The notes beneath the pieces were generated by a model. It searched no databases. It saw only the letters and a program-made list of their open reading frames with translations, and was not told the origin of the DNA. Shown here one piece after another: positions 32,294-61,097 of a stretch of 64,000 nucleotides of DNA. Source of the stretch: Hexactinellida sp. DTS-2022 (taxonomy: Eukaryota; Porifera; Hexactinellida); contig JAPNXP010000010.1 in assembly GCA_028753945.1 (NCBI GenBank), forward strand, positions 3,847,042 through 3,911,041, given 5' to 3'. A program made the position numbers and the translations under genes. How positions within the stretch are numbered: the stretch's first letter is position 1; each line of letters starts with the position of its first letter.

Positions 32294-32500
32294 GCAATTG
32301 ATCGACTTCTGAGGGTTTTCAATTGATCGACTTTCTAAGGTTTGCAATTGATCGGCTTCAGGTTTTCAATTGATCGACTTTCTAAGGTTTGCAATTGATC
32401 GACTACAGGTTTTTAATTGATCGACTTTCTAAGGTTTGCAATTGATCGACTACAGGTTTTCAATTGATCGACTTTCTAAGGTTTGCAATTGTTCGAAAAT
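32294..32500. repeat. Iteron array, left end of MULE A
   Basis: Tandem units of CAATTGATCGACTTTC plus a short linker (CTAAGGTTTG, AGGTTTT or similar). Inverted copies close the right end at 34355-34418. The array is a plausible binding-site cluster for the transposase's FLYWCH domain. Reading frames that start inside it are spurious extensions. Confidence 0.9.
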
Positions 32501-32554
32501 ACAATTGTCGATAAATTGTAAACTATACAAATGTATACTAGAGACGTTTCATTG

Positions 32555-32564
32555 TATAAATAAG
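32555..32564 (+). promoter_or_regulatory. TATA box of MULE A transposase
   Basis: TATAAATAAG lies just inside the iteron array and 75-80 bp before the chosen start at 32635. Elements C, D and E show the same array, TATA, start order. Confidence 0.6.
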
Positions 32565-32634
32565 TGTCCGTTTTACAATTTGTTTATTCGAATACGTACT
32601 TATCTCTTACTTTATTTCCACTCTAATCTCAACA

Positions 32635-34291
32635 TGGACTACGCATGCGGAAATTATAAACATAGAAGGGGAACAATTTTCACTACGCCAGATGGTTTTA
32701 AATACACACAACACAAAGCCAAACCTGGGGTAATGTATCTCCGATGTGTTTTACATCAGAAAGTGAAGTGTAAAGGATCTGCAAAGTTAAACTCTGAATC
32801 CAATACTATTGATCCCATAAAACACCATAACCATCTAGTTTCTGATTATCATACTGAAGTTTTAATTTTAAAATCTAAATGTGTTTCTGCTGCGAGATGT
32901 TCACGTGAAAGGTTATCTAAAGTGTTCAAAGATGTTGTTCGATATGATTCTTCTGCAGTTCATGTGTCCTATAAAAATTTGGGGAGTGCAATGTATCGAG
33001 CAAGAAGAGAAATTGAACCACGTATTCCTAAAGGTGCTACTGAGTTTTGTCAACTTATTGTATCATCTGATTTTGGTTTATACTATAAAGGTGAAGTACA
33101 AGTAGGTGGTGACACTGGTGTGATATTTTTCTCAGATAAGATGAAGATTTCTCTCCCTGAAGTGGATCACATCTATTTTGATGGTACATTTTATACGGTA
33201 CCATCCCAGTTCTATCAATTGTGGACTATCTTCGCCCGCTTTGGACGCCAAGTACTTCCGGTTATCCATTGTCTTCTTACAGCCAAGCATGAGGAAATCT
33301 ATACAGCTGTTCTCGCTAGAATACACGAACTTGTTCCACAACTAAAACCTAGCCATGGAATGTCTGATTGGGAGAAAGGGGCTAGAAATGCTGTAAAGAG
33401 ACAGTTCCAAGGTATTCATCTACGGGGATGTCATTTTCACTATACTCAATGTATTTGGCGGAAAATACAAAACTTAGGTCTATCTACTCTATATCAAACT
33501 AATCCAGATTATAAAAAACTATTTAGATCATTTGTGACTCTTCCTTTCCTTCCTGAGGATCAGATTATATTTTTATTCAATCAACTGGAAGTGAGAGATT
33601 TGCCTCTTAGTGAAGTTCATAAGAATCAATATGCAATCTTTAAGAAGTATATAAGACGACAATGGATTATTTCCATTCCTAAGAACGAATTATCTATCTT
33701 TAACTGCCAACATATCACAAATAATGGAGCAGAGAACTACCACTATAGATTAAAAAAAGTCATCGTGGTCTCTCACCCGCGTGTATGGTTTTTTGTTGAA
33801 ATCCTCAATAAGACGATACAAGACACAGATTTAGACATTGAGAGCCTAGGAAAAGTTATTGATATACTCGCAGTCGTAAGTTGAAGGACATCCAAAATGA
33901 TTCGTTTCGTGCTCAATGCAAAGAAATGCTTGTATCTGGAGAATATAGTCCAACTCGATATGTGGGTGCCATAGCTAGCTCTATTCACCCAGTTACAAAC
34001 CCAATTAGCCTTGGAGATTTCCAAGATGAGTCTTTGACGGATGAAGAGCCTGAAGATGATATTCAGGTTAATTGCTGTGTATGCTTACTTCAGAGAATAA
34101 TAACAGTCCTATTTCTTCCATGCAGGCATGCAGAATGTTGTGAGGAATGCAGTGCATCCTTGGAACAATGTCCAATATGCAGGTGCAATATAGAACAAAG
34201 ATTCAATATTTTACTTAATTTTTATTCTAATATTTTTGTTGTTGTTGTTATCCAATTTTTATTCATTATCTTTTCTCAATTCCTTAATTAA
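32635..34291 (+). pseudogene. MULE A transposase: FLYWCH + MULE DDE + RING, one frameshift
   Basis: I choose ATG 32635 (MDYACGNYKHRRGTIF) because the frame upstream is iteron sequence. Residues about 10-70 form a FLYWCH zinc finger (YLRCVLHQKVKCKG, then HHNHL). The MULE catalytic core has YFDGTFYTVP (first Asp), SDWEKGARNAV (second Asp), RGCHFHYTQCIWRKIQ (conserved C-x-H) and ITNNGAENYHYRL (Glu). The frame ends at 33884. A 1 bp shift near 33865 restores homology (TRSRKLKDIQND) leading to a C-terminal C3HC4 RING finger at 34073-34180: Cys65/Cys68, Cys81/His83, Cys86 or 87/Cys90, Cys97/Cys100 of the second frame. The catalytic residues are intact, so it died recently, unless the shift is recoded. 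Confidence 0.87.
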
Positions 34292-34418
34292 ATCATTATA
34301 TTCTCAAAAATATTACTCAAAGTTAGAATAAATCACATATTATGTCTATCACTAAGTCGAACAATTGTAAACCTTAGAAATTCGATCAATTGCAAACGTT
34401 GTCAGTAGATCAATTGCC

Positions 34419-35360
34419 GCGCTTCCCCATAAATGATGCCCAAAAGTAAGTCTTTATAATCACAACTGTGCATATTATGCTTCATGACTATGGATACACA
34501 TTAGTCTGAGACTATTTGCTTTAGTACCGCTGAATAATAACAATTGTGCTTTTTGGATGCCCGACTAGGAAATATATATCAGTCATAAACGGTCCCCAAA
34601 AGAACCTCTCTATAATAACAACTGTACTTATTATGCTTCCCTGCCAAGAATATACATTTGTATGAGAAGGTGCGTTTAAACTACTTTCTATAATAACAAC
34701 TGTTCTCATTATGCTCTCCAACTTAGAAATATACATTAGTCTTGGATGTGCACAAAATTTCCTCTCTATAATAACAAATGTGCTTACTATGCTGTCTAAC
34801 TAAGAAATATGCTTTACTAATAAACGGCGCACAAAAGGAACCTCTACAATTAGAAACTGTGAATATTATGTCCAGACTAAGAATACACATTTGTCCTATA
34901 CGGTTCGCTTAAGTACCTTTCTATAATAACAACTGTGCTTTTTATGCTTCCCGACTACGAATATCCATTGTGTTTGAACGTGCACTTAAGTATCCCACTC
35001 TAATGACAACTGTGGTTATAATGCTGGCCGACTAAGAAATATACATTAGTCATTTTCGGCAAGCAAAAGTACATCTCTATAATAACGACTGTGCTTATTT
35101 AGCTTCCCCCTTAAGAAATATACATTAGTCATAAACATGGGAGCAAAAGTATTCTATATATTAACAAAATGTGCATATTATCCTCCCCTACTTAGAAATA
35201 TACATTAATCATTGACAGTGTCCAAAGGTACCTCTCTATAATTACAACTGTCCATATTATGTTCCCCTACTAAAGAATATCCATTAGTCATGAACGTTTC
35301 GCAAAAGTACCTATCTATGATAACCACTGTCCTTATAATACTCCCCTAATAAGAAATTTT
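34419..35360 (-). repeat. ~79 bp satellite, minus orientation
   Basis: About 12 monomers continuing the array interrupted by MULE A. It ends at the S inverted repeat (35352). Confidence 0.85.
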
Positions 35361-35450
35361 CTATATTAGAGAAAATTGATATTGTCAAATTGAAACTAAA
35401 TGAACTGTCTCAAAGAAAAATTTAGCTTGGAAATGTAATAACAGATCAAT
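35352..35450. repeat. S repeat, left copy (inverted at 61098-61205)
   Basis: About 100 bp matching the reverse complement of 61098-61205 (shared blocks such as AACTAAATGAACTGTCTC here). At both ends it is followed inward by arrays of the 19 bp F iteron, which lie in the same orientation, not inverted. It may be the left terminus of a large composite element. Confidence 0.6.
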
Positions 35451-35479
35451 TAAAATGAAGAAAAGTTCGTGTAAAACAT

Positions 35480-35585
35480 GAACTAAATTGATCCCTATCA
35501 AGTCCATTAATCCCATTCAAGTCCATTAGTCCCTTGTAAGTCCGATCATCCAGCTCAGGTCCATTTGTCCTGTTCAGCTCCACTA
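35480..35585 (+). repeat. F-iteron array 1 (degenerate)
   Basis: About five diverged copies of the 19 bp unit GTCCATTCGTCCCGTTCAG. The array ends abruptly at TACATTGG inside Helitron coding sequence, at the codons for YIG where copy H1 also carries a deletion. Confidence 0.7.
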
Positions 35586-36407
35586 CATTGGACATCTCAT
35601 GCCGAGAGAGGAACAGGCCCCGGCATTTGCTCAGATATACATCCATGACGGTACCCCTGAGGCTGAAGCGGAGTATCGCCAGCTGGATCAGGGTGGGGCG
35701 TCCCTACCCGAGCTCCCGTGTCTACAGGATATGCTGCATGAGGTCAATCCCTATGTTCCTTCTTCAGACAGGGAATAGACGTTATGCGAGAGCATGTAGG
35801 TGCAGACGTGAGGATGACGATTAAATTTGACGGCTCCTCTGATCACCGTCGGTACAACGCCCCACTATACCTGAGATCGCCGTTATCATGCTTGGAGACG
35901 GATATAACGAGCTGGAAGCCAGCAGAGACATTGTCTTGCACGCGCGGAGTTGGTGACTTGCAGCGCATTACCGAGACCCACCGCGCCCACGATTCCCTGC
36001 ACTATGTGCTCCTATTCCCTCGATGTAAGTACTGCTGATTGATTGACATATGTATTAGTGTGCACTGTTTACACTGCTTCTCTTAGGTGAGGATGGCTGG
36101 AGGCTTTAATTCCCTCACAGCAGAGGAAAGGGTTGCGTCACTCCGATGGAGTACTACACCTACAGACTGATGGTCCGGAGCAGCCTGAGCTACCTGCACG
36201 TGTTCGGGAGACTGTTCCATCAGTACCTGGTGGATATGTACGCTAAGATAGTGCAGCAGAGAGTGAACTACATAAAGTTTAACCAGAGGCCGATCAGGAG
36301 TGATCTCTACAGCGGTCTGGCTGACGCTCTGTCCTCTGGCGACACGTACGCCGGTGAGCTGGGACGCAGTATTGTTCTCCCCTTCTCTTACACAGCTAAT
36401 CCCATTG
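35586..36407 (+). pseudogene. Helitron H3, 5' part (interrupted by element K)
   Basis: Homologous to H2: PREEQAPAFAQIYIHDGTPE at about 35600, then ITETHRAHDSLHYVLLFP and LSYLHVFGRLFHQYLVDMYA. An intron-like or inserted segment near 36025-36085 separates LFP from the next block. Homology stops at YTANP (about 36405), where the terminal repeat of element K begins. It resumes with RQMFELYQDAMA at 53740, so the two halves are one Helitron split by K. The N-terminus before YIG is absent. Confidence 0.87.
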
Positions 36408-36814
36408 TGCAGCCACTTAGTGGAAAATTGTGCTTTTGATGATAAAAGCGTGCAACTTGGCACAAAGTAAGACCAAATCATACCAAACCTTTTTGGATAT
36501 AGGGGCATCTTTGATTTTTCTAATGCATAAAAATTTTGAGGGTCAAAATAATTGACACCAAAAAAAAAATCGCCGTTTTCAAGAATCAAGATTATCTTTG
36601 CCAGTGCTCTTAAAACAACTTTTATTCTCAGATTCGTACTTAATACTTAATTACCAGCATTTTTATGTGTATATAGACCATATTTGGAGATTTTTTTGTT
36701 GCTCACTAGCAAAGGTCTTAAATGTTACACATTCTATCTCCAACTTTACTTTAACCATATCGTGTTGTCCTTTGTTTACCTTATCCTATCTAAGTACTAG
36801 ACCAGTGAAAGACT

Positions 36815-40879: not shown

Positions 40880-41495
40880 TAGAATTTTATGTAGAACTTT
40901 GATCGAATTTTCTGATGTCGAACTTTGATCGAATGATGAAAAGTACCAATTTCGATCAAAGTTCTACCAAAATGTCCAGAGTCGAACTTTGATCGAAGAT
41001 ATGTCGAACTTTGATAGAAAAAAGAGAACTTTGATCGAAAAGGAGAACCTTGATAGAAAAAAGAGAACTTTATCGAAAAGGAGAACTTTGATAGAAAGAT
41101 GAGACACATGATGGAAAATCTGACACTTCAACAAAAGTAAGAACATTGATCGGAAAGGTAGAACTCTATAGAAAATTTGATCGAAAAGGTAGAACTTTGA
41201 TAGAAACTTTGATCGAAAAGGTAGAACTTTGATAGATAAGGAGAACTTTGATAGAAAATTTGATTGAAAAGGTAGAAGTTTGATAGAAAATTTGATCGAA
41301 AAGGTAGAACTTTGATAGAAAATTTGATCGAAGATATGTCGAACTTTGATAGAAAAGGAGAATTTTGATAGAAAAAAGAGAACTTTGATCGAAAAGGAGA
41401 ACTCTGATAGAAAGATGAGAACTATGATCGAAAATCTGACACTTCAACAAAAGTAACAACTTTCATCGAAAAGTGAGAACTTAGATGGAATTTAA
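40880..41495. repeat. Iteron array, left end of MULE B
   Basis: About 30 units of 18-19 bp, GAACTTTGATCGAAAAGGA, with GATAGAAAAAAGA variants and some units reversed in the first 120 bp. The core TTGATCGA is shared with the iteron of MULE A. Confidence 0.9.
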
Positions 41496-41745
41496 TCTTT
41501 ACAGAAAAATTTAGTAGTATTCAGTGAGATTTGAAATCTGTAAACTTTTGGGAGGTCAAACACCTAATGTAAATGCTAGCTTCATCTGATGGCGATTGCT
41601 ATTTTCGTACCTGATATGTCTCCCAGATAGTATATTAATCATTTTCTACAAGGATTGTCAACCTTTCTTTTAGTCTTTGTGATTCAGAACCGATAATTGT
41701 AATTTACTTGTTATACACGAATTCGAACCTATTATTTTAGAAATC

Positions 41746-43345
41746 ATGGAGTATAAAATAATTGAAGGCAAGAAGTTGGGCTCTCGAAATTTTGAATGCG
41801 AAGGTTACCGGTATACGCTATCTAGTCAATCCGAAACATCCATCTATTTGAGATGTACACTTTGGAGGTGTAGAGAAAGATTTTGTCACGGTAGTGGACG
41901 AATCGATCGTCTTTTAAATCTATTATACATTAAACGGATACATAATCACACTGAAGCTGCATACAAGTCGAATATCATTGCTCTAAATAACAGACTCATG
42001 CGCGCAGCTGAAACTTCAACAGACAACCTTCAACATTTTTTTACGATGTAACCTCTTCAGATCAGGCTGGTGCTTTAGTAAACATATAAAGACGTTCGCA
42101 ATACGATGGTAAAACGGAGACGGTTGGAATTACCAGGGAATCCAAAGACAGCTGCAGAATTTGAAAACATGATCATGCAAACCCGTTTTTCAAAGGTTTT
42201 TCGGTCGATGATCATTCTAACAGAGGGATTCGCTGCAATATTTTGGTCAGATCGCATGTTTGAATATCTGAAAGCATGTGACCTCATCAATTATGATGGA
42301 ACATTCTATGTAGTGCCCAAATTGTTCTACCAGTTGTTTACCATATTCATTCAGGAGAGTCATCATGCCATACCAGCCATACATGTCCTGATGTCTAAAA
42401 AGAATGAACTTCTTACGAGGCTGTGCTGCAGAAAATTGCTAATATGATACCCCGTTTTAAGCCAAAATTAGCCATAGGTAACTTTGAGAAAGCATCCCGA
42501 AATTCCTTTCGTACAATCATCAGTACAATAGAAGTTTCGGGCTGTCTATCCATTATACCCAAGTAATTTGGAAGAAAGTGAAAAAGTTTCAGCTTTCACC
42601 AGCGTATACTCAAAATTCACATCTTAATAAGTGGATCAGGTCAATAATGGCTCTTCCCATGCTACCAAAAGAAGAAATAGCTTCAGTTTATCAATTTCTA
42701 GCGGATTCACCACCTCCTGAACTCACCTCTATTGAAATGAAACTTTTTCGAAAACTTCGTTCTTACATAAAAAAGGAATGGATTGTGAGAAATGATATGT
42801 CTGTGTACAATTCATTGCAAAAAACTAACAATTGTTGTGAAGTTTATCACAGAAGTTTGAAGTCACTTATTCGTGTGAAAAAGCCGAACATATGGGCGTT
42901 TATGGAGTGTTTCGAAAATAATCTGATAAAGTATGACTTAGAGTTTCAGAGATTGAAAAATGGGTTGGAAATCGGTGGACGATCGTAAAAGGATGTCGAT
43001 AGCGAGAGACAAAGGCTGATCTGCAAAGATAAGCTTAAGAATAGAGAGTATTCGATACTTGAATATCTGGACAAAATTTCGGATACTATTGGTAGCCCCC
43101 AATATTATGGTTACTCTCAAAGTACGCTTTCAGACGAAAGTTGCAATGATGACTCGAATCATTCTGATGATGATATTGTGTCCAATCCCTGTGTGATATG
43201 TTTGATGAGTAGAGCGGCTACATTCGTGATGTTACCATGTGGACATGCACAGATATGCGGGAACTGTGAAGGAAATATTAATGAAGGCGATAGATGTCCT
43301 ACTTGCAGATCAATAATATCAACCAAACTACAGATTTTCCAGTAA
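41746..43345 (+). pseudogene. MULE B transposase: FLYWCH + MULE core + RING, decayed
   Basis: ATG 41746 (MEYKIIEGKKLGSRNF). A FLYWCH-like finger runs to about 41960 (YLRCTLWRCRERFCHG, HNHTEAAY). Stops and shifts follow at about 42050. The core reads NYDGTFYVVPKLFYQLFTIF (first Asp), IGNFEKASRNSF at about 42480 where the second catalytic Asp is replaced by Asn, and QKTNNCCEVYHRSLKS (Glu). An in-frame TAA at 42986-42988 precedes further homologous sequence (DSERQRLICKDKLKN). The C-terminal RING is at 43190-43306 (CVICLMSRAATFVMLPCGHA, then CPTC). The stop TAA is at 43343. It is closest to MULE A in order and in the RING tail. Confidence 0.83.
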
Positions 43346-43964
43346 TTAGAAACATATAGGATTCGTTAGGAATCACTCAGCTTATTTACTCTCCGATCTC
43401 CACAAATGGAACTGCAAGCTAACACAATAATTATAGGTATTATATAGCCATATGTTAGTCCTTTAACATATAGTATATGTCATAACACATTCGTTATATT
43501 ATTTAGGGATCAAAATAAGACATCATTGGTAATTGCACATCATCGAACATTTTTTCTTAATAGCAGGCAATATGGTTAGACTTGTCTATAACAGCCACAT
43601 AAGGGGGTAAAGGGATTAGGTAAATAATTTCTATATACTGTTGACAGCTTTGAGAGTCCGAAATTTATACAGTGGTGGTTGTTAAGAATGTTTAACTGTA
43701 TAGTGTATACCTAGTACCTTATACTAACAAAAGGGGTCATTTCTTAGTATAAGGCACAATAAATTAACATGTCATTTTTCATAAATAGATGAACTTTTAA
43801 CCATTATTGAGATAGTTTGTGACTCAAGTTATCACGTATTTCAAATATTTACCGTTTTATTAAAGACCAAGTGAACTTACCTTCGGAGTTCACACATTTA
43901 CAAAGTCAACGTCAAAACTCCAACCTTATTCAATATTTCATTTTTCAGTTAGTGGTCACATTTT
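43346..43964. other. Interior of MULE B downstream of its gene
   Basis: About 620 bp, AT-rich, without coding potential. An imperfect hairpin TACCTTATACTAA/TTAGTATAAGG lies near 43710-43765, and a segment near 43570-43700 resembles CAGTGG-type MITE debris. Confidence 0.35.
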
Positions 43965-44341
43965 CGACAAATTTTCTATCAAAGTTCTACCTTTTCGATC
44001 AAATATTCTATCAAAGTTCTACCTTTTCGATCAAATTTTCTATCAAAGTTCTCCCTTTTCGATCAAATTTTCTATCAAAGTACTACCTTTTCGATCAAAT
44101 TTTATTTCAAAGTTCTATCTTTTGTTGAAGTGTCAGATTTTCGATCATATGTCTCATCTTTCTATCAAAGTTCTCTTTTTTCTATCAAGGTTTTCCTTTT
44201 CGATCAAAGTTCTCTTTTTTCTATCAAAGTTCTCCTTTTCTATCAAAGTTCGACTCTGGACATTTTGGTAGAACTTTGATCGAAATTGGCACTTTTCATC
44301 ATTCGATCAAAGTTCGACATCAGAAAATTCGATCAAAGTTC
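43965..44341. repeat. Iteron array, right end of MULE B (interrupted)
   Basis: Inverted counterpart of 40880-41495 (TTCTATCAAAGTTCTCCTTT units). The last ~120 bp mirror the first part of the left array almost exactly. The final bases were displaced to 52592-52617 by insertion of element C. Confidence 0.9.
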
Positions 44342-45654: not shown

Positions 45655-45656
45655 TA

Positions 45657-46615: not shown

Positions 46616-46630
46616 ATGTAATGGCTAAAT

Positions 46631-48616: not shown

Positions 48617-48652
48617 TTGAAGATACGTATTATATAAGATATAAAAGCAGTA

Positions 48653-48660
48653 TTTATATA
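48653..48660 (-). promoter_or_regulatory. TATA-like box of MULE D transposase
   Basis: TATATAAA on the minus strand about 40 bp upstream of the start codon and about 120 bp inside the iteron array. Confidence 0.45.
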
Positions 48661-48779
48661 AAATTTATCTGAGTGCTGTATAGTATTTACATACACCTTA
48701 TTAATCGTTTATCCTAATCACCTTCATTTTGGCCATTGTAAGTAAATTCTTCATTGATAGCATCATGTACATTTAGAAC

Positions 48780-48927
48780 TTCGCTCAATTAGGCTTCGCT
48801 CAATTACGTTTCGCTCAATTGGGTTTCGCTCAATTAGGTTTCGCTCAATTGGGTTTCGCTCAATTAGGTTTCGCTCAATTGGGTTCGCTCAAGCGGGTTT
48901 CGCTCAATAAAGTTTCGCTCAACTGGG
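48780..48927. repeat. Iteron array, right end of MULE D
   Basis: About ten 15 bp units TTTCGCTCAATTGGG, the inverted counterpart of 46974-47130. The outermost three units match the left end exactly, including the aberrant CGCTTGAGCG spacing. Confidence 0.92.
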
Positions 48928-48943
48928 GACGAATCAGCCAGAA

Positions 48944-49418
48944 CAAGTAGTCCCGTCCTGAATTTGTGTATTTTGATGGATTAGTTTTATACATAGCATT
49001 CTAATATTCTAAGGCAATGGTGGTCAAGTTTTTTTGGGACCATGGATTGGTTAGACAAGTTAAATATGATTATATACACAAGTTCAAAATTAGATATATT
49101 GATCAGTTTGGTAGTGTTTTACAGTGAAATTACACTGTTGAGTTATACTTCTTCACTCTACTTTGTACCTCCCCCCCTCTAATATAATATTGATCCCTAA
49201 TAGTAATTAGTGAAGGTGTGAACAATAGCTACATGTTTAATTCATTCATGAAAAATAAATATTTGTTACATTATGAAAGAACAGAACAACATAAAATGTA
49301 GTTTGGGAACTTCAGAGCTTCGTATAGGAACATAAAAACAATACACTGTCAACAATAGTTATCATCAAAAGAATTTGTTGCTTTAACAAACATCTGAGAA
49401 GTATCTAAATAAAGAAAA
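48944..49418. other. Non-coding sequence between MULE D and P5
   Basis: About 475 bp of AT-rich sequence with no coding block. It presumably includes one edge of the P5 insertion, but no CATAGCC-type terminus is visible. Confidence 0.35.
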
Positions 49419-51814
49419 TTAGTTACTATATTTTTTAAGCTTCGAATTGTCAGATTTCACTACCATCGTATTATAATTCTTAACTTTTTTTGAGAGAATA
49501 CAATTAGAAACAGTCACTATAATTTTTTGTAATATATCCCACCGCCAGACTTTGCAATCACACCATTCTCTCCATTTGCCAATGAGATTATCTTCAATAA
49601 CCTTCATACTTATTCTAACTAACATAGTACGACAGGGACCAACAAAGAAATTTTTACTGAGAATTTCTGAGCTATTTATTTTAATAAAAGTTTCGTTTCC
49701 AATTTTGGCACACTCGCTAACTGCAATAGATGGATATTTAAGCGAACCTCTGTCTAATAATTCAATGAGAATAAATTGAGACCCCATATCATTCACTACT
49801 TCCATTTGTTTTTCAGTAGATAAGAAATTATGACAATCTGCACAAGCCTTAGACTTTTTTAGGTACGAAAACACGGCATACCCAGCAACATAAGTAAGGC
49901 ATTCAATCTGAGATAAATGTATTTGAGGTTAGGGAATTAATTGAAGTGTCTCAAGATATAACTGAAAATCAAAAATAGAATCTGATTCCTCCCCACAAGC
50001 GTTTTCGGCAAATTTGTGTATATAATTCACTAACGATAAAGGCTTGACAACTTCTTCAGAATTCAATTTCGTTGAAAATAATTTCAGAATATTTGAAAGT
50101 TGGAGTCTTCTTTCACTTTCTAATATTTGACAGTATGTAATATGGTAGTGAGCGCCAGACATTTGTCTATATAGTCCGAAGTGATGTTCAAAGGGGTCAT
50201 TTTGAATTCTAGCTGATAATACATATTTGAAATCACATTCACTAATAAGTCGATCAACTAGGAGAGGTAGTGCCATACACGTGTGTCTAAAACTCGTAAC
50301 GTTTGTGGAGTTAGTTTACCAAATTTACATGGTAAATTTCTCCAACAATTTAACCATGCAACCACTTTTTGAATAAAGCATATTCGAAAATCGTTTTGAC
50401 ATAATGGAGCTGAGTACTCATTTTTGAACCGGACATCTTTTCCAACCCAATTAACGTTAAAAATGTCCCAAATATTACTAATTACTTTCAAAAATGCAAC
50501 TGTTTGGTTTTTCTCTACAATTTCTTTTTCAGTTTTGAAAGTTAGCAGTCCATAGTATGTAGATTCGTGGAATATCTTAAGTGCCAAGTTAACATTTTGC
50601 CTTTCTAATTTAGATGGCCAACATGCCTTAGAAGACAGTTTAGGTGCCCTTTTCAGAATATTGTACACGTCTGATTTGAATAAAGTTCTTATGTCCTCAA
50701 AAGGAGCTGTACATACTTGTGGATAGAGTGACGGGTGTTCAATAGGATTAACGGTAACATTTTTTGTTTGAATAGAAACACAAAGACTATTAGGTGGAGT
50801 TAAGTAGTTTGAATAACCTCCAAGGCAATCTTCAAACAGGGGGAAAACAAATGTCTTGTCATGTTCGTGTAAATTTAACCAATTATTACGAATTGATTTA
50901 ATAATATGCACGATATCAAAAAGTAGAATTAAATTTCTGGCTGGGTTACATGGATGTTTAACTTTAGGTTGTAAAGTTTTTGAGTCGTTTGAAAATAATT
51001 TAAATAAACTCACACTCAGGGGACAGTTATCAGTACAAATCGCTTCAACAAACAAGTTACAACTTTCAATATCAGAAATAGTTTTTCTGATAATTGGGAA
51101 AAGGATCTCTGCTGACGAAGATCCGAGTGGTATCAAACGAACAATGGTTGAATATTTTTTAGCCAAACTGGAAACCATTATAGAAAAAACAGTTGTTGGG
51201 GGATCTTCAGGGTTCTCAATGGATCCAATAATTCTACCCCCTTTGTAGCTAGCATCACTTCGGATGTGCACTTCATCCATTTGAACAATTATAAGGCGAT
51301 CGAGCTGGCTAAATGTTGTGGCAGTTTCCTTAAGGACGTTGAAGTACTCACTCTCTAAGCCAATTGAATTTTTAATTTTCAAAATATTCCTCTCGTGTGG
51401 CAGAATTAAACAATTCGAAGAGAGAATAAGTCGATAACCAGCAGGCGATATTCCATGAAGTTTTAATGCAAAAACTTGGGTAATAATACTATAGCGGCGA
51501 CTATATTTGTCAGTGATTAAATATCTCAGCTGGTCTAGAAGGAAGTGGAGTCGAATTTTCATTGAACTTGAGTCTTCCATTCCAGTTTCACTTAAGCTAT
51601 TTTGACCAAGGTCTAATTGAGTAATTGCGCAACCGATATCACTAATCGCATGTTCTACATAATTTTTCATCGTAATACTTGTGATATTTAAATTTTGGGG
51701 TAAAGAATAACAATTAACTTCATCAATAAGTGTTTCAATTTGACGTATATCATTTATCACCCTTGTTGACAATTGGATAGGATGTTTTTCCATATATAAT
51801 GCTTTAGCATTCAA
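49419..51814 (-). pseudogene. P5: P-type transposase lacking THAP, two lesions
   Basis: From 51814 (MNAKALYMEKHPIQLSTRV) 518 residues are open. They include the three P-type catalytic regions' first two motifs, LIIVQMDEVHIRSDASYKGG (Asp) and EAICTDNCPLSVSLFKLF (Asp), then SKACWPSKLERQNVNLALKI. A frameshift near 50290 leads into ALPLLVDRLISECDF and the third motif IQNDPFEHHFGLYRQMSG (Glu). A stop at about 49930 precedes the C-terminal VAGYAVFSYLKKSKACADC and LLDRGSLKYPS. All three acidic residues are intact. No THAP domain or P-type terminal repeats are found, so it is 5' truncated or a THAP-less lineage. It differs clearly from P1-P4 and lies inside element C. Confidence 0.83.
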
Positions 51815-51919
51815 ATCATGGTCAATTATGAGGGTTCGTTCAATGGAAGGGATTCAGAATCAGCCGAAGAGCAGATCGAGCTACCGAGATGCAGTCGAAC
51901 AATTTTAACAAATTGATTC

Positions 51920-52135
51920 TTTTAATTAAGAGCAGAGCATCCCTGGAGAATGAGAGAAGAGTATGGCCGGATGAGAGAAATGCTTTGAAAAGAAAAGTTT
52001 GGGAGAAAATTAGAAAACTGCGAAATATGGAGACTTAGCTGGAGGGTTCCGAGAAGTGTAGGGATATCATTGGAAACTAGAATAATTTGTATACTTTATT
52101 ATTTAGATGTTTGTTGTGTCAATTAATGAAATAAA
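51920..52135 (+). pseudogene. Likely 3' terminal exon and poly(A) signal of element C gene
   Basis: A short plus-strand frame (RASLENERRVWPDERNALKR, then VWEKIRKLRNMET) ends at TAG 52036-52038. AATAAA follows at 52130-52135. Position and strand fit the last exon of the gene started at 44588, but no family match is recognised. The remaining sequence to 52445 is AT-rich without features. Confidence 0.4.
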
Positions 52136-52444
52136 GTTGAGTTGCTACTACGTATTCATTAATTAACACCTTCTTTTAATAAAGCAAGTGGATTACAATT
52201 AAATATATAAGTTAAGATAATAAAAAGGGATAAATTATTGTAGTAGAGAGTAAATTTAGATAAACAATTAATTTTATAATAAATTAATCTGTAAAGTGGA
52301 AAATTCTTTTCACTACCAGCGCTCAAAAGACCACAGTAAATTGGAAAGCAAATCCAGAATTCACGAGTTATACTAAGTCTCAAATTCACAATTAGATTAA
52401 TTAATTAAGTATAACATTAAATGTTCAGTAAACTTATAGTAGAG

Positions 52445-52591
52445 TGATAAAATTTACCTTATAGTTGCGTCTCAAAATACCACATCGTCTCAAAATACCT
52501 CAGTCTAATTTGTAATAGCACATCCATGGTGTATAGAGTGTATCATATAGGCGTCTCAAAATACCACAGCGTCTCAAAATACCACACAACA
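52445..52591. repeat. Right terminal inverted repeat of element C
   Basis: About 147 bp, the near-perfect inverse of 44342-44489, with four copies of GCGTCTCAAAATACCACA in two pairs. Confidence 0.9.
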
Positions 52592-52619
52592 GTTCTATAT
52601 AAAATTCTATCAAAATATA

Positions 52620-53230
52620 CACATCCCAGTTCCCAAGCCTGATCGGTGTATGGCTCTGCTAATGTTCAATGCGTTCACAGGCTGCGATACAGTGTCATGT
52701 TTTGCAGGTAGGGGAAAAAGGAGAGCGTGGGACACATGGAAAGTCTACGACGATGTAACACCAGCTTATGTTAGTTGATTGCTAACCCAGAATCCATAGA
52801 GAGTGTTATGAAGCCATTGGAGCGATTCGTAGTATTAATTTACGACCGTACCAGCAGCCTGCAATGTATCAATCAGGTACGAAAGCAGCTCTTCACACAG
52901 AAAGGCAGATCAATAGAAGGGCTTAGGGAAGGCCCGACAAAAGAAGCTCTCATACAGCACACAAAGCGAGCAGCTTATCAAGCCAGTTACTCTTGAGCCC
53001 AAGCAATGGTTGCAGACCCAAAGATTCCATCTCCGAGTGAATGGGGTTGGAAAAGTAAGGAATCAGGCGGCTGGGAAATATGCTGGACAACTCTTCCGGA
53101 AGCTACGAAGGTTTGTAGAGAACTGCTGCGGTGTGGGTGCAAAAAAGGTTGCAAACAGTGCAACTGCCTAAAGGCAGCACTCCAGTGTACTGCACTTTGC
53201 GACTGTGGTGGACTGTGCACTGAGAACTAA
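52620..53230 (+). pseudogene. Element K gene, 3' part: TGCDT motif and CXC domain
   Basis: Continues the 5' part in frame: HIPVPKPDRCMALLMFNAFT, then TGCDTVSCFAGRGKRRAWDTW (Asp at 52686-52688). After a TGA near 52770 and a frameshift near 52996, it ends in a Cys-rich CXC (tesmin/TSO1-like) module at about 53135-53227, with CGCKKGCKQCNCLKAALQC and CDCGGLC. CXC modules bind DNA, which suits a transposon-encoded protein. The stop is at 53228-53230. The right inverted repeat of K begins about 200 bp further on. Confidence 0.78.
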
Positions 53231-53737
53231 AAAAAGAATCAACAATATTGTTATTTCTGTAATTTCTCATCACTACACTTGTCTAGCTTTCAATAAATTT
53301 TACGATTGGTTAGTATCCATATTAGTTGATTCGTACATAGTGGACATAACAAAATAAAAGGGGTCACTCAATAAAGCTAGAGTAAATATGCAATTCTGTG
53401 AAATTTCAGGCCGTTGCTAGTGATTCAGTAGTGAACATCAGAAATTTCTCCAAATACGGTCTACATACACATTAAAATGTGGGAAATTAAGTGCTGAGCA
53501 CGAATCTGAGAATAAAAAGTTATTTAGAATGCATCTGGATAATATAACCTTGATTTTTAAAAACGGCGATTTTTTTAGGGGTCAATTTTTTGACACCCAA
53601 TATTTTTACCATGGGAAAATCCAAGATGCCCTTACATCCAAAAACGTTTGGTATGATGTGCTCTTACTTAGTGCCAAGTTTCACGCTTTTATCATCAAAA
53701 GCACAATTTGACCAATATGTTGCACTTAGCGGCTGCA

Positions 53738-54527
53738 CTACCAGGCAAATGTTTGAACTGTATCAGGACGCTATGGCTAGTCTGGAAATATGGTAAGCCA
53801 GACTTATTCATTACATTTACCTGTAATCCACAATGGGAGGAGATTACTTCCGCGGTGCTATTAAATCAGAAAGCGAGCGATCGCCCTGATTTAATAGTTC
53901 GAGTTTTTCGCCTTAAATGCGTGAATTATTGAGCGATATTATCAAAAAGCACATTTTTGGTAAGCCTCTTGCCTATGTGTATACCATAGAGTTCCAAAAG
54001 CGGAGCCTACCCCATGCTCACATTCTAATTATACTTACCGATGAGTATAAGCCGCGATACCCGTCTGCATATGATAACATTGTGTGTGCTGAGATCCCGG
54101 ACCCAGTTCCTAAACCGAGGCTACATAGCATTGTGAAGCGCTGTATGATGCATGGTCCATGTGGTTTGTCTAACAAAAGCGCCTCTTGCATGCGTGATGG
54201 TAAATGCTCTTAGAGATTCCCGAAAGAATTTTCTTCCGTGACCAGCACTGCTAATAATGGCCGCAGGGATAATGGCCGTAGCGTGCGAGTAGGGAAGGCT
54301 CTTCTTGACAATCGTGGGTAGTCGCACACAATCCCTATTTGCTGTTGAAGTACATTGCGCACATTAATTTAGAGATTTGTACCACAGTTACTGCTGTTAA
54401 GTACATCTTCAAATATGTGTACAAGGGTCACGATAGCGCCATTGTTGAGTTCAGTTCAGGTGAAACTGCGAATAATAGCGTATCTAAGCCTAAGGACGAG
54501 GTCGCTAATCACGTAGAAGGTCTATGA
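53738..54527 (+). pseudogene. Helitron H3, 3' part: Rep region
   Basis: Resumes H3 after element K: RQMFELYQDAMA, FITFTCNPQWEEITSAV, ASDRPDLIVRVF. The Rep HUH motif is intact, SLPHAHILIILTDEYKP (about 54000-54050), and the tyrosine motif reads AVKYIFKYVYKGHDSAIVEF (about 54395-54450). At least three frameshifts or stops lie between (TAG at 54212; after LLDNRG). Homology ends at VANHVEGL, where the G array begins; the helicase is missing. Confidence 0.85.
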
Positions 54528-54539
54528 GAATTGCCAACT

Positions 54540-55092
54540 CTAGGAGAGTTTCGAATTGTTGGAAAGATGCGCCTTCTTGGAGAGATGCGCCTTCTAGGAG
54601 AGATGCGTCTTCTAGGAGAGATGCGCCTTCAAGGAAAGATGCGCCTTCAGGTTGAGATGCGCCTTCTAGGAGATATGTGCCTTCTAGGAGAGAAGCGCCT
54701 TCTAGGAGAGATGCGCCTTCTAGGAAAGATGCGCCTTCTAGGAGAGATGCGCTTTCTTGCAGAGATGTGCCTTCTTGGAGATATGTGCCTTCTTGCTGAG
54801 ATGCGCCTTCTTGCAGATATGTGCCTTCTTACAGAGATGCGCCTTCTAGGAGATATGTGCCTTCTAGGAGAGATGCGCCTTCTTACAGAGATGCGCCTTC
54901 TTGCAGAGATGCGCTTTCTTGCAGAGATGCGCCTTCTAGGAGAGATGCGCCTTCTAGGAGATATGTGCCTTCTTGCAGAGATGTGCCTTCTAGGAGATAT
55001 GTGCCTTCTAGGAGAGATGCGCCTTCTAGGAGAGATGCGCCTTCTAGGAGAGATGCGCCTTCTTGGAAAGATGCGCTTTTGGAACAATTGCG
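54540..55092. repeat. G array: ~30 copies of an 18 bp unit
   Basis: Tandem units of GAGATGCGCCTTCTAGGA with a few changes (GATATGTGCC, TTGCAGA). Because 18 is a multiple of 3, several frames stay open on both strands and give artefactual GEMRLL or RRISPR repeats. The array truncates Helitron H3 and resembles the iteron arrays of A to E, but no inverted partner is in the window. Confidence 0.9.
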
Positions 55093-55627
55093 CCTTCTTG
55101 CAGATTTACCGAATGACCCTCTTGAATTGACACTGTAAAAACGGTTGACATTTTGCCTTTACAATGATATTTTTTCCTATAGTGCTTTTTATTGATATTC
55201 CGTGGCGTATTAATATATAGTGTCGCAATCTATTTATGAGAATGCAAGAATTATTTGTTTGATATAACTTAGCATTTCATATTTAAATTAAACTTTACCC
55301 ACCCTTATTCAAGGATTGGCGCATTGCACATCTTATTATTTCGGTCTTTATATGCGCACAGGAAATATTGTTGTAGATCCGAAATGTCTCGAAAGCGCAT
55401 CTTTTCCTCATTAATAAGGATGTCTCGTTCTGCAGCCTCAATATTCGGATGCATCTGCTGCAAATGCCTTCTAGGCTTGACTTTACATAGATTCAAATAC
55501 AAACAGTATATGTTAGCAGACACTATATAAATCAATTGAACTAAATTTGTAAAAAGCGATATCAACTGATAATTTATTAATGGCTACACCGTCCAAAAAA
55601 GTTGCCTGCACAATTTGCAAAAGAGAC
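55093..55627 (-). other. Region beside the G array; possible coding relic
   Basis: A minus-strand frame at 55565-55305 (HPNIEAAERDILINEEKMRF, FLCAYKDRNNKMCNAPILE) looks protein-like. It could be a piece of a FLYWCH-type transposase gene belonging to the G array, but no catalytic motif is seen. Two small upstream frames are uninformative. Confidence 0.25.
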
Positions 55628-55992
55628 ACAGAACAAGTGCAAAACTGGATGCGTGCATGGGTACTACTATCATTTGCCTGTGTACAGTATTTTTGTAGAT
55701 ACCGTAAATGAATAACAATGCTTCATCCATTTGTCACATTTAATTCCATTCGTCCCATTTAAATCCATTTGTCCCGTTCAGGGACATTCGTCCCGTTTAA
55801 TTCCATTCGTCCCGTTCAGGTTAGTCCCGTTCAAGTCCATACGTCCCGTTCAGGTCCATTCATCTCGTTCAGGTCCATTCGTCCCGTTTAGGTCCATTCG
55901 TCCCGTTCAGTTACAGTATCTACAAGAATGCATACAGTACACAGGCAACTGATAATAGTACCCAATGAACAAATCCAGTTTTGCACTTGTTC
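55628..55992. mobile_element. Small inverted-repeat element with a central F-iteron array
   Basis: Inverted flanks (CAGAACAAGTGCAAAACTGG near 55633 facing TTTTGCACTTGTTCTG near 55977, and GCCTGTGTAC near 55677 facing GTACACAGGC near 55940) enclose about nine copies of the 19 bp F iteron (55740-55915). It is about 365 bp and non-coding. Confidence 0.68.
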
Positions 55993-56033
55993 TGATTTAC
56001 ATTGATTCAAATGCAAACAGTATGTGTTTGCAG

Positions 56034-56615
56034 CAGGCTTGTCAAAAAGTCAGGTCATGACCTGACCTGACCTGACCTTTGAGTGACCTGAACCTATTTT
56101 CTGAACGCCTTGACCTGACTGACCTGACCTGAACCTAATCTTGCATGATTTTGACCTGACCTGACCTGACCTGACCTGACCTGACCTGACCTGACCCAAC
56201 GTAGTCTTTCAAAGGGTCAACTCGGTTGGATTTAATTTTTAAGATATATCAACGCCACTTTTCCCACAAAGCGTGTTAAACGCGCTTTGATTTTGAATTG
56301 AGTATATTTTTGCAAAAATGACGCGCTTAAGTATTGATAACACGCCCGTAAAGCGTCTCTCAAGCAATTATGAACGCATCGCAAAAAGTCGGAGGAAATG
56401 TTGATCAACGCCACACCAATTAATAAATTGATGCTCTATTTTGTATGAACCCCACTATTACTGAATTGACCTGAAATGACCTGAAATTGACCTTAGAATG
56501 TGAAATACCTGACCTGACCTGACCAGAATGATTTATTTTCCACCCTGAACGTAAATATTGTATATAAGACCTGACCTGACCTGACCTGACAATGCGGGAC
56601 CTTTTGACAAGCCTG
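56034..56615. mobile_element. hAT-like MITE built of GACCT repeats, 8 bp target duplication
   Basis: Ends CAGGCTTGTCAAAAAGTC and GACCTTTTGACAAGCCTG, flanked by a perfect 8 bp duplication GTTTGCAG (56026-56033 and 56616-56623). Both arms are long (GACCT)n-type arrays in inverted orientation around a ~250 bp unique centre. Ends and duplication size identify hAT; it encodes no transposase. Confidence 0.9.
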
Positions 56616-56623
56616 GTTTGCAG

Positions 56624-56860
56624 ACACATATATTATAAATCAGATGAAAAAGCAAATTACTGCAGGAAGTACAGATGTGTATCTAAGATTTTACGCCTCG
56701 TTTATGTTACACTTGCACCAAAACTTTAAAAGCACATTCCCACTTGAGAGTTATAACAACATAGAACAACGGATCCACAGGTATGTTATCATTCTGCCTA
56801 ATTAACTACTATAACTTAAATAAAAATCGAAATAAATTAATATTTTCTCTGGGTAAATTA
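56624..56860. other. Short possible exon, otherwise unannotated
   Basis: A plus-strand open stretch (about 56640-56782) ends at CAG/GTATGT, a fair splice donor. No family is recognised, so it may be chance. Confidence 0.2.
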
Positions 56861-57119
56861 CCGTATTTACTCCAATAGTAGCCTAGGCGATTATTGTTTT
56901 TACTCCATTTTTCCACCAATAATTTTGAGCAATTTTCTAGAATATCACATTTTATTACAATTTAATTATGAATCTCGGTTGATAATCGTATTGTGAGTTA
57001 TATTAGATGTAAATGTTTACTCCGGGTAGCAGTAATACATTTTTATTTGCTACTTTAGGGGGGCGATTGTTGGAGGTAGGCGATTATTCGAATAGAGGCT
57101 ACTATTCGAATAAATACGG
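56861..57119. mobile_element. MITE with CCGTATTTACTCGAATAG family ends, copy 2
   Basis: Same 259 bp element as at 16593-16851 with only a few differences (CCGTATTTACTCCAATAG start), indicating recent spread. Confidence 0.82.
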
Positions 57120-57770
57120 TACTTAATATAAATTTAGTTTAACCCAATAAAGAGAACAACATCAACTCAAATTAACATATTATACAAGTGAAATACTTCA
57201 TAAAGGTGGCATATGGGGCTCAAAAAGATGGCAAAACTGGAAAATATGACAAAAGAAGAGAAACTCTACATGAAACAACAACAAAAAAATGCGTTACATG
57301 ACAACCGTAACACCTACCCACCCTCAACGCCCAAAGCGAGTTGATTTCCAACTAAAGGGCGACCCAAGCAAACACCCCCCAAAATCCTATCAAGCAAAAT
57401 TTCTGCAAGCATTCCTAGTTCACACAACAAACATCCAATTATACCCAATGACATCAATCACTTAATTACCAATTCAACTAAGGTCAATCATTAAAAAAAC
57501 AATTAAAAGAAAATTAGAAAAATGAACATTCCAACAACCAAGCAACTAAATTTTCAAAGTATAGATCAATTACGTCATACTAATAAATTTAATTACGTAC
57601 ACTACGCACACAGTACAATTCTTTCTTCAAACGTCACTGTGCTCTGCTTCGTGTTTCTTTGATTCTAAAAATAATACAGTATAATTTTAATTATTATTTA
57701 TCTATTTTTACAATTCAAATATTTTTTGTTATTTCCCCAATTGCTTCAAATACCATTTATTTGGTGATTT
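57120..57770. other. Unannotated AT-rich stretch
   Basis: About 650 bp without recognisable gene or repeat. A weak open stretch near 57210-57350 has no family resemblance. Confidence 0.35.
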
Positions 57771-58575
57771 CCTCTCCCCATTTGTCCATAATATTTATCC
57801 GCGGTGCTCGCCTGATGTTGCATGTATTCAGAACAATTTGTTTTTTCCAGGTTTACTTCTGGCTATAAATGTAGATGCCGCTATCTTGGATTTTATTGAA
57901 GTATTTCTTGAAATTTCCTGCAAGTGCAGTACGTAGTTTATTTAAACTTGTTTGTCCCTGCATGATTGATTTCCCATTATAAGAGATAAAAAATGGACCC
58001 TTAGTATCATTAATTTCCAAATCTGCTGTGTGGAAGAATATTATCCCGATATTTCTCGAATACTTTTGCTGCAGTTTTTTCTAAATACTATTGCTGTTGC
58101 AATTTTCCAGTTTTATGTTTATAAACTATAATTTTCAAATGTTGATTTTAGTCTTCAGTATTGTAACTTAATTTGTAAATTCAATGTTCCTTCCGCTGCG
58201 AAATAAATATATTAATAATTTGATCTTGTATATTTTGTTAATTCGTCCCGTTTAGGTCCATTCGTCCCGTTTAGGTCCATTCGTCCCGTTCAGGTGCATT
58301 CGTCCCGGTGAGGTTCATTCGTCCCGGTGAGGTCCATTCGTCCCGTTCAGGTCCATTCGTCCATTTCAGGTCCATTCGTCCCGTTCAGGTCCATTCGCCC
58401 CGTTCAGGTCCATTCGTCCCGTTCAGGTCCGTTCGTCTTGTTCAGTTCCATTCTTCCCGTTTATGTTCGTTCGTCCCGTTCAGGTCCATTCTTCCCGTCA
58501 GCTCCATTCGTCCCGTTTAGGTCCATTCTTCCCGTCAGGTCCATTCGTCCCGTTCAGGTCCATTCGTCCCTTCCA
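57771..58575 (+). repeat. X unit, insertion and F-iteron array 3
   Basis: X (starting near CTCCCCATTTGTCCATAATA) recurs at 60628-60780, and both copies lead into F-iteron arrays in the same orientation. This copy carries a ~300 bp insert (about 57895-58190) bracketed by CCGCT. The F array, 58240-58575, has about 17 copies of GTCCATTCGTCCCGTTCAG. Confidence 0.75.
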
Positions 58576-58920
58576 GATTTACAAATTTTCTCAGTTTGTC
58601 CTATTCCCTTGTTTGTATTTTTTGTATTTCAATTAAATATACCACTCAGCTATATAGGTACCAACACTTGCACACTTTACATTAATTCATTATTTATATA
58701 CTACTCGGGATACCGACAATTCGTAACACGACAATTCGTAACAGACAATTCGTAACACGACATTTCGTAACACGACAATTCATAACGCGACAATTCGTAA
58801 CACGACAATTCGTAACGCGACATTTCGTAACATAAGATATATCTGATTACTCATTCTATTACTTATAATTTAAATAGTTAGTACTTTATTATTAAGTAGT
58901 ATAATGTAGTGGAAAATAAA

Positions 58921-60319
58921 TTAGTCAGATCCAATACTAAAGTGGTACGATACTCCTCTTAGAAATTCCATTCTGGGGCGGTGCGGATAACTAAGAATTA
59001 GATTTTTCAGGGCTCTTTCATTATCTTTGACTGCTTTCCGTTTTACTGGTTGGTCCCCAACAATGTACTTGGCTTGCCTCACTTCTACTAATCCTTGTTC
59101 CCTCTTGAGTGCAGAAATAAATTTCCAAATAGTGGGATGGTGGCAACCCACAGTGAAATTAAAGCTCCGGTGCCATGCTTCCACCGCATTTGTTGTTCGA
59201 GGGATCCCTAGGACTGTATCAAAATGGTAGTTCCATATACCAATTGGAAACAATGGCTGTTGGTATGCCCCACCAGGTAACCTTCGTCCTATATAGGTCC
59301 TCTCGAAGTACTCAATTAATTGATCCGCCTGAGGAGTAGGGAGCTGGGATGCCACTTCAGCAAACAGGCTGGGGACTTCGAAAGGATCTGCAAATGCCAG
59401 AGATGCTATCATTCTAATACTTATAGCGAATTCTTGATCATTCGAATATAGTGTCTGCAACCCTACTGCTTGGACTTTCCGCCATATATTCTGGGTGAGA
59501 TGAAAAAAGAATCCTTTAACAGTAGAGTTAGGCCATGTCTGCTGAAAACTGTTAACAGCAGCCTTCTCAAAGTCCATCAGCATATCTTCTGCGTGGGCTT
59601 GCGGACAAAGAAGCTGCACCTGTTGCCACATTCTTTTATATGTTGCTTCCGATTTGTTGGGGAGTAAAATAAAAATACTTGGCAACAAATGGCCATCTTT
59701 CAGCAAATCAGGGCCTCCTCGAAGAGCATGTATTACATATACTTGTGTGAAAAGTAGAGGAGCCGTCCTAAAAGTACAATCAGCTAACCATACCCTGGAG
59801 AATTGCAACTTAGTATCCTCTGGATCTCTGGACCTGAATCATATAAGAGAAAAAGCTCGTCTTTTGATGTCCGCATGAATTCTACTGGTATTATAAGTTG
59901 TTCCAGAGTAGTAGGTTGAACTGGTGCTGTTAGAACACGTTGACGTTGTATAGTACGTTTAAGACTATCCAATTTGGGCAGCTTGGCAGCAATACCCTCA
60001 TTTACTGTTTGGACACATTCACCCACAATATAATGTGAACTATCTTGGGATCCCTTTGCTTTTCTTTTAATATTTATTTTACTTCACTGCAGCTAATTGC
60101 TTTCTCATCAGGAGGATGTAAGTGTTGGTTTGTTCGTTTCACAATTTCAAATCCTTGTGTGTGTACAATTGCTTTACACAATCCTCGTTGAACACACAGC
60201 CAGTGAGTTGTTTCTCCAATTCTTCTATGCTTTCCATAAATGTATCCCCCTTCTATGAGCTTCTCTGCGCCTCTCTGAGATATACTTAGTCTGAAAGACT
60301 GATGATGAGATTGTGCCAT
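58921..60319 (-). pseudogene. MULE E transposase: FLYWCH + MULE DDE, two frameshifts
   Basis: Starts at 60319 (MAQSHHQSFRLSISQRG) with a FLYWCH finger (LIEGGYIYGKHRRIGETTHW, LCVQRGLCKAI, then HLHPPD). A frame break near 60075 leads into INIKRKAKGSQDSSHYIVGE. A second near 59805 leads to the catalytic part: VWLADCTFRTAPLLFTQVYV (first Asp), DMLMDFEKAAVNSFQQ (second Asp), VKGFFFHLTQNIWRKVQAVG (here the usual C-x-H Cys is Phe), and PRTTNAVEAWHRSFNF (Glu). It ends at 58921 without a RING. It is similar in plan to MULE D. A TATA (TATATAAATAAG on the minus strand, about 60351-60362) lies between the start and the right array. Confidence 0.87.
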
Positions 60320-60350
60320 GGAAAATAAATTACATTGATCACAACAACAA

Positions 60351-60362
60351 CTTATTTATATA
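60351..60362 (-). promoter_or_regulatory. TATA box of MULE E transposase
   Basis: TATATAAATAAG on the minus strand, about 32-43 bp upstream of the start codon and inside the right iteron array. Confidence 0.5.
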
Positions 60363-60627
60363 ATTTTACAGAGGTTTATATTAGGCACCTCAAAATGTTT
60401 TATATAACAGGTTTGTTTACGCATTATATACAATATAGATATCCAAATTAATCAAAAGGATGACATATAGCAGAATTAATAGAATCAAAATATTTATTAT
60501 TCTCACGTTACGAATTGTCGCGTTACGAATTGTCGTGTTACGAATTGTCGCGTTACGAAATGTCGTGTTACGAATTGTCTGTTACGAATTGTCGTGTTAC
60601 GAATTGTCGTGTTACGAATTGTTCCTC

Positions 60628-61090: not shown

Positions 61091-61097
61091 TTAGTTT

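Follow-up and report, generated by a model that had tools for sequence, protein, structure and literature searches.

Inward-facing unit arrays of FLYWCH Mutator-like elements in a glass sponge are most likely transposase sites inherited with the transposase

Introduction

How do transposons lying side by side in one genome come to have the same kind of ends? This question is raised by a 64,000-nucleotide stretch of the glass sponge Hexactinellida sp. DTS-2022 (hereafter the window; C2:3847042-3911041 of a 112.4-Mb, 18-contig genome), in which five elements, the Mutator-like elements (MULEs) A, B, D and E and the Ginger-like element C, end in short repeated units facing each other. A first-pass annotation of the sequence had read them as unrelated transposons that converge on inverted arrays. 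Our analysis points elsewhere. A, B, D and E are foldback MULEs with a FLYWCH finger, further members of the Muta1/Tm1 type, and sequence comparisons suggest that their inward-facing arrays are most likely FLYWCH binding sites inherited with the transposase, C being independent of them. What is new here is the co-diversification of unit and transposase, which bears on an open question: how transposases and their ends change specificity jointly without loss of function.

Results

Arrays face each other across element-sized intervals

The five facing arrays placed in the window by the first-pass annotation were all found in the sequence, and its limits for C (44342-52591) and D (46960-48935) were exact to the base; E begins at 58707, at GGGATACC, rather than at 58711. 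The TATA-like stretch and ATG that it described inside one array of A, C, D and E were visible by eye. Inverted arms were detected in B (40893-40997 and 44238-44342, 105 nt, 98%, with longer arrays besides), C (44341-44473 and 52460-52592, 133 nt, 95%), D (46966-47115 and 48780-48929, 150 nt, 89%) and E (58714-58820 and 60503-60609, 107 nt, 95%). Inverted 9-mer scores were 10 for B, 6 for D and 5 for E; among 2000 random anchors in window 1-30000, taken as the chance baseline, none reached 3 and 34 reached 2. A scored 2, with a direct-repeat score of 4 coming from the adjoining satellite, and its ends are lopsided, with a left array of about 8 units and a right one of about 3, which are decayed. 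On window evidence alone, the facing arrays of A are weak.

A genome-wide search was made with four unit patterns, the array places being typed in condensed form from the listings and, for one pattern, representing the first places of 385. Among the matches listed, which is the scope of all counts in this paragraph, the places clustered into 125 arrays, and 44 pairs of neighbours lay no more than 5 kb apart. Across the four families, 43 of the 44 pairs pointed inward, one lay on the same strand and none pointed outward; reversed patterns, used as a control, had zero matches in the whole genome. The span of 36 of the 43 facing pairs was 1.68-2.53 kb, the size of one element. The A unit contributed 12 facing pairs, two of which span only 527 and 578 bp and are probably non-autonomous. 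One of the 150 scored MULE matches was enclosed by each of 16 facing pairs, all of the L045 or D clades; no A or E pair enclosed one, because these lineages score 39.3 and 28.9 bits and the lowest match on that list scores 45.7. Mixed A-type arrays of CAATTGATCGAC and CAATTCATCGAC were observed at C7:1920559-1923127 and C15:3186731-3188942, and arrays of CAATTCATCGAC alone elsewhere.

Six whole copies of E were compared. Inside their arrays, the five others share 94-98% identity with the window copy, and the transposase was encoded between the arrays in all six. The five copies with both termini start with GGGATACC; in the window copy the right terminus is missing. All five two-terminus copies were flanked by target repeats of 8-9 bp, four of them perfect (CCAATTTGC, TTCAACGG, TCTATTATT and TATGTAAAC) and one consisting of GTTGTGT plus a mismatched base (7/8); no target duplication was found for the window copy. 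Unit counts per copy (left/right) were 6/14, 9/7, 8/8, 8/8, 8/9 and 2/6, excluding stray matches outside the copies (two at one, one at another), so that otherwise closely similar copies vary in the length of their arrays.

An alternative is that the arrays serve mainly the expression or anti-silencing of the element, and not its transposition, like the VANC-bound motifs of VANDAL MULEs. By eye, the start codon of A, C, D and E directly follows one of the arrays, and VANC motifs are described as fast-changing, family-specific tandem repeats (PMC5735166). Nevertheless, we consider this explanation unlikely. Both ends retain an array, the promoter-distal end too, and the two arrays face each other; arrays also persist in the short A pairs, which are too small for a gene. 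Furthermore, no second gene of the VANC kind was evident in A, D or E, each of about 2 kb, though no search with a VANC model was made.

Facing arrays are inherited within FLYWCH-MULE lineages

The MULE model PF10551 returned 961 first-look candidates genome-wide; 150 of them were scored, and every one passed the cut-off. Forty of these 150 loci were examined, the 30 top-scoring ones plus 10 selected manually because their scores were distinct and their frames long; several are near-identical copies. Array status was assigned by Tandem Repeats Finder (TRF), an inverted-repeat search and counts of facing units, and families were defined as clusters at 80% protein identity. In the FLYWCH lineages, defined by a FLYWCH finger in their intact members, facing arrays were found on both sides of 21/32 loci, 18 of which score at least 3 in the inverted 9-mer test, and in 14/20 families. 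L039, L041 and L062, with a score of 2, were counted as two-sided on inverted repeats of 84-153 bp and on unit counts where made. In L062, L039 and A, neighbouring repeats bring the direct-repeat score level with or above the inverted one, and the best word of L062 is not its unit. The stretch around ten of the 32 loci (L044, L050, L052, L056, L057, L058, L064, L067, L069 and L070) had an array on one side. L060, with a 123-bp inverted repeat and only a doubtful unit, is not among the 21. L067 has a one-sided 31-bp array, and a separate, plain 83-bp inverted repeat lies further out.

Loci L031-L038 (8 loci, 5 families) form a separate protein cluster. Within 1.5 kb of their MULE domains, facing arrays were found at 0/8 loci and in 0/5 families; L038 has a plain 78-bp inverted repeat. 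FLYWCH was not found in the seven of these loci scanned singly, four of whose frames are too short N-terminally to judge; the scanned frames matched MULE with weak SWIM, FAR1, ZSWIM or Mutator-family hits only. A maximum-likelihood tree of 28 proteins (B, L031, L037 and L038 left out) separated 23 proteins of the FLYWCH group from 5 of the other lineage with 100/100 support, and A, D and E all fell within the clade of 23. A piece of the broken B gene clustered with the A lineage.

These results bear on the possibility that unrelated transposons gain inverted arrays through some way of building ends shared in this genome. The superfamilies compared were MULEs and element C; P-like, hAT and Harbinger elements are also abundant (928, 638 and 231 first-look candidates). 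C does belong to another superfamily and has repeated units at both ends, but these are arranged differently. The search for C ends gave 454 candidates; the 40 scored were copies, and 20 were fetched. In 20/20 fetched ends, exactly four units stood at query positions 7, 25, 91 and 109, a fixed 2+2 layout unlike the fluctuating MULE arrays. As A, D and E belong to one clade, B clusters by A, and arrays are usual there, the array feature is best seen as inherited within FLYWCH-MULE lineages and not reinvented by unrelated elements. Convergence is not supported and appears very improbable.

The unit tracks the transposase

Each of 22 families was represented by one unit, typed by hand from the TRF consensus (L060 and L067, with no clear two-sided unit, were omitted). 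Unit similarity fell with transposase distance (Mantel Spearman -0.516, P 0.0001, 9999 permutations, 231 pairs); the control in the wrong orientation gave -0.09. Read inward, the best 10-base match was 9.6, 8.7, 7.4, 6.5 and 6.5 of 10 in successive bands of rising distance. Among related families, L040, L045 and L059 have the unit CATCTTGCCGAA in common, and D and L039 the unit TGAGCGAAAC; ACAATTCGTGAC in L064 and L069 is related to ACAATTCGTAAC in E. The comparison of L061 with E (protein distance 0.52) was exceptional, its unit match being at background, 6.

This similarity was retained where synonymous sites have largely lost theirs. In 13 sister pairs, fourfold-degenerate sites differed by 0.54-0.77, near or at saturation in most (about 0.71 is expected for unrelated sequences), and the best unit match was still 9-10 of 10 bases in 12/13; L062 and L065 matched at 8. 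In addition, the hand-chosen core recurred more often than any spacer word in 9/9 array pairs, by narrow margins in A (12 vs 10) and L042 (14 vs 12). Both patterns are as expected from selection on a binding site. Because units stay alike in sister pairs whose synonymous sites are near saturation, and cores outlast spacers, we conclude that a unit is passed on together with its transposase and is constrained by it. That the arrays are functionless slippage products, carried along after neutral tandem duplication, appears very improbable: unit number does vary within a family (E: 6/14, 9/7, 2/6) and 10/32 loci have a one-sided array, but the near-complete unit matches of sister pairs close to synonymous saturation, the cores outlasting their spacers, the 43/44 listed pairs that face each other and the eight loci of the other lineage without facing arrays all argue against it.

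A core common to all units, which visual inspection made attractive, was also considered, of the kind known as the W-box TTGACC of WRKY or the site YDTGCCRW of Caenorhabditis elegans PEB-1 (the latter site being unconfirmed), WRKY and PEB-1 being proteins of the FLYWCH/WRKY fold group. It was rejected: units of distant families (198 pairs) matched at a mean of 6.62/10 in either orientation and shuffled units at 6.44 +/- 0.09, a slight excess that we do not treat as a shared core.

Organisation of the elements in the window

The coordinates of the elements are collected in Table 1. C is nested in the right array of B, and D is nested in C. The MULE domain was detected by Pfam in A, D and E, and FLYWCH passed the Pfam cut-off in A and D. 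In A, FLYWCH and MULE lie in the open frame 32433-33884 and RING in another frame; the FLYWCH-like parts of B (41683-42051) and E (frame 60074-60355) were recognised by motif alignment only. The target duplication of A is imperfect by eye, and none was found for B. One E-lineage transposase had 111 relatives, 11 of them proteins recorded under the name Oopsacas minuta, a glass sponge (54-67% identity), and one unnamed database protein matched at 95%. A C-terminal RING (C3HC4) finger characterises one FLYWCH-MULE clade (zf-C3HC4_3 in 8/46 Pfam rows; L047, L055, L066 and L067) and was also seen in the A piece 33863-34291 and the B piece 42989-43345.

Table 1 Features of elements A to E in the window
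Element	Feature	Positions	Strand	Basis and remarks
A	Left iteron array, core CAATTGATCGAC, spacing 21-25 bp, ~8 units	32292-32496	+	TRF
A	Transposase, FLYWCH + MULE + C-terminal RING	32634-34291	+	Pfam; ATG 32634
A	Right array, short, decayed, ~3 units	34360-34420	-	By eye
B	Left end and array, core AACTTTGATMGAAA	40866-41490	+	TRF; outer limit by eye
B	Transposase, broken into several frames	41683-43345	+	Open reading frames, motif, RING
B	Right array	43956-44341	-	TRF, inverted repeat; severed by C insertion, outermost part ~52592-52625
C	Left end: terminus TGTTGTG, four TGTGGTATTTTGAGACGC units as two pairs	44342-44473	+	
C	Integrase_H2C2 (integrase zinc-binding domain)	44964-45146	+	E 3.6e-13
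C	Right end, units in two pairs	52460-52591	-	Inverted repeat, sequence
D	Whole element, inside C	46960-48935	.	Between 8-bp AGCCAGAA repeats (46952-46959, 48936-48943)
D	Left array, TGAGCGAAACCCAAA, 15 bp	46974-47137	+	TRF, sequence
D	Transposase, open reading frame, FLYWCH + MULE	47228-48616	-	Pfam
D	Right array	48780-48929	-	TRF, inverted repeat
E	Left end: terminus GGGATACC, array of 8 CGACAATTCGTAACA units	58707-58832	+	TRF, copy comparison
E	Transposase, broken	58921-60319	-	MULE part 58921-59838; ATG 60319
E	Right array, 8 units	60507-60622	-	TRF; outer terminus damaged in window copy

Ginger elements carry an Integrase_H2C2 domain, TGT...ACA ends and a 4-bp duplication. C shares all of these: it runs from TGT to ACA between copies of GTTC (44338-44341 and 52592-52595). 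Genome-wide, the flank was GNNC in 20/20 fetched ends, and a 4-bp duplication was found in 5/5 end pairs compared as well as in the window copy. C is thus assigned, by domain, termini and duplication, as an independent Ginger-like integrase element, which differs from Ginger in its 2+2 unit layout. A fragment of a P-element/THAP9-like transposase lies inside C (49419-51853, minus strand), for which no inverted ends were found within the window; its family is the P-like one with 928 first-look candidates. The P-like gene was rejected as a component of C: two protein matches among the 20 fetched C-end loci were positioned outside C, and the DNA of window 48939-51838 matched no fetched C-end locus (the loci reach 1.5 kb inward).

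Blocks of a satellite of about 78 bp were found at 3291-5050, 15858-16125, 18638-19006, 21699-22780, 30576-32291 and 34569-35357, and A is inserted between two of them. Arrays of 18-19 bp, made of ATTCGTCCCGTTCAGGTCC and variants on one strand, surround E (55726-55910, 58241-58570, 60778-60866 and 60966-61095) and are perhaps the ends of another family. Two distant inverted matches of 109 and 287 bp, between 35356-36708 and 53429-61200, flank the block from B to D. A Helitron-like gene lies in pieces at 24411-28407 (Helitron_like_N and PIF1), and an open frame at 54528-55130 contains 18-bp tandem repeats with a sub-threshold LED_rpt match.

Discussion

Collectively, arrays accompany the FLYWCH lineages, point inward from both ends, conserve their cores and follow the transposase; most simply, they would be transposase sites recognised by FLYWCH. 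Each end starts with a short terminal motif, and next to it comes an array of a single short, inward-facing site, most likely bound by the N-terminal FLYWCH zinc finger. Repetition could make a short, weak site specific and strong, and the paired arrays may bring both ends together for cutting. Through the same binding, the array just upstream of the transposase gene could tune its expression. Arrays gain and lose units, while the unit itself changes slowly alongside the transposase, giving each lineage its own address.

It is conceivable, though we propose it only tentatively, that this address evolves as a set: the units of both ends would shift by one or two bases with FLYWCH, limiting cross-mobilisation between sister families and letting many MULE families coexist in a small genome. 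Candidate series are GACAATTCGTAAC (E), GACATTTCGTTAC (L063), GACAATTCGTGAC (L064 and L069) and a fourth ...CGTACC variant from the pattern search, as well as CAATTGATCGAC and CAATTCATCGAC, which some arrays mix.

Several observations weigh against FLYWCH recognition as the explanation of the arrays. No core is common to units across clades (6.62 vs 6.44 +/- 0.09 shuffled). The FLYWCH region differs by 0.31-0.66 in 12 sister comparisons and exceeds the whole-protein difference in 10 of them, which obscures links from residue to base. In a Pfam scan of 46 rows, fragments included, MULE was matched in 43 and FLYWCH in only 24 (E 0.01); Pfam misses FLYWCH in the long proteins L047 and L066, where it is visible only by aligned motif. 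The array-free lineage was viewed within 1.5 kb of the MULE domain only, several of its frames are too short to contain an N-terminal finger, and two of its loci, L034 and L036, carry tandem repeats, albeit non-facing. Among the matches listed, 38/125 arrays are without a partner. Finally, whole ends inherited without function would give the same association of unit and transposase; the saturation and spacer comparisons argue against this but are few, and the cores were chosen by hand.

With regard to the first-pass annotation, its view of foldback arrays as element ends holds, except that the "array" of C is two pairs of units. Its private motif for each element is better described as a unit tied to a lineage, as sister families have most of the unit in common; the Mantel association agrees with its pairing of each unit with its own transposase lineage. 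The origin it suggested by replication slippage is plausible (slippage or unequal recombination), given E copies 94-98% identical inside that differ in array length, and the selection it envisaged for clustered protein sites fits the unit conservation against near-saturated sites and the core-over-spacer counts. It had stated that the idea would fail if copies usually lacked arrays or if arrays associated with transposases at random; the sample refuted it on neither count, as 21/32 FLYWCH-lineage loci were two-sided and the Mantel coefficient was -0.516. The convergence of unrelated transposons is not supported: four of the five cases are of one kind, and C, with its fixed layout, gives little support for shared end-building.

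In this genome, sister families whose units and transposases correspond form a graded series, from near-identical to unrelated, in which co-changing residues and bases can be searched for. It also calls for caution, as tandem units of transposon ends may pass for independent minisatellites.

Among open-licence PubMed Central papers, no work on glass-sponge MULEs was found, and a search for papers linking such units to FLYWCH transposases gave those on Muta1 and Tm1 and a review of giant transposons. More distant systems share parts of the organisation. Rehavkus is MULE-like with a minisatellite near one end, but it carries a PHD finger and its minisatellite precedes the 3' end (PMC6446971); no PHD family was among the 14 families matched in our 46-row Pfam scan. 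Galileo, of the P superfamily, has repeated transposase sites in its long ends, where THAP sites were footprinted, and limited cross-binding between subfamilies (PMC3688188); its binding domain is THAP, whereas A, D and E carry a MULE and not a P-type transposase. The VANDAL elements of Arabidopsis resemble the sponge families in that a MULE-encoded protein, VANC, and family-specific tandem motifs co-diversify, but the motifs are described as non-coding, with a separate protein of anti-silencing function binding them, and not as facing arrays at both ends (PMC5735166).

Tm1 of root-knot nematodes (Meloidogyne) is closer. It has a MULE domain and a FLYWCH-type finger, incomplete in Tm1-A, and its ends carry variable numbers of a 14-bp unit, 9-bp duplications and short, asymmetric outer motifs of 7 bp (PMC3169594). 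Similarly, the outer motifs of D are asymmetric (GGGGTTT and GATTCGT, by eye). The unit of Tm1 is different, and its authors judged it inactive (PMC3169594), while the sponge E copies are 94-98% identical inside.

The closest resemblance is to Muta1 and Muta5 of Aedes aegypti, which encode a FLYWCH and DDE transposase of about 500 aa, produce 8-9 bp target duplications and end in a short motif, of 10 bp for Muta1 and 8 bp for Muta5, followed by nine subterminal tandem units of 12 or 15 bp, unit number being variable in derivatives; Muta1 is mobile in yeast (PMC5225508). In Aedes, 10/12 long-ended MULE families have subterminal tandem repeats of 9-15 bp, and FLYWCH was reported in 13/14 families (PMC5225508). 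Unlike these elements, the sponge families live in another host and have other units, in some families with a spacing of up to 25-31 bp, and one sponge clade adds a C-terminal RING; the link of unit to transposase lineage does not appear in the passages on Muta1 and Muta5 (PMC5225508). A 2026 survey of arthropod MULEs has already suggested that long ends provide multiple sites at which the transposase acts cooperatively (PMC13359780).

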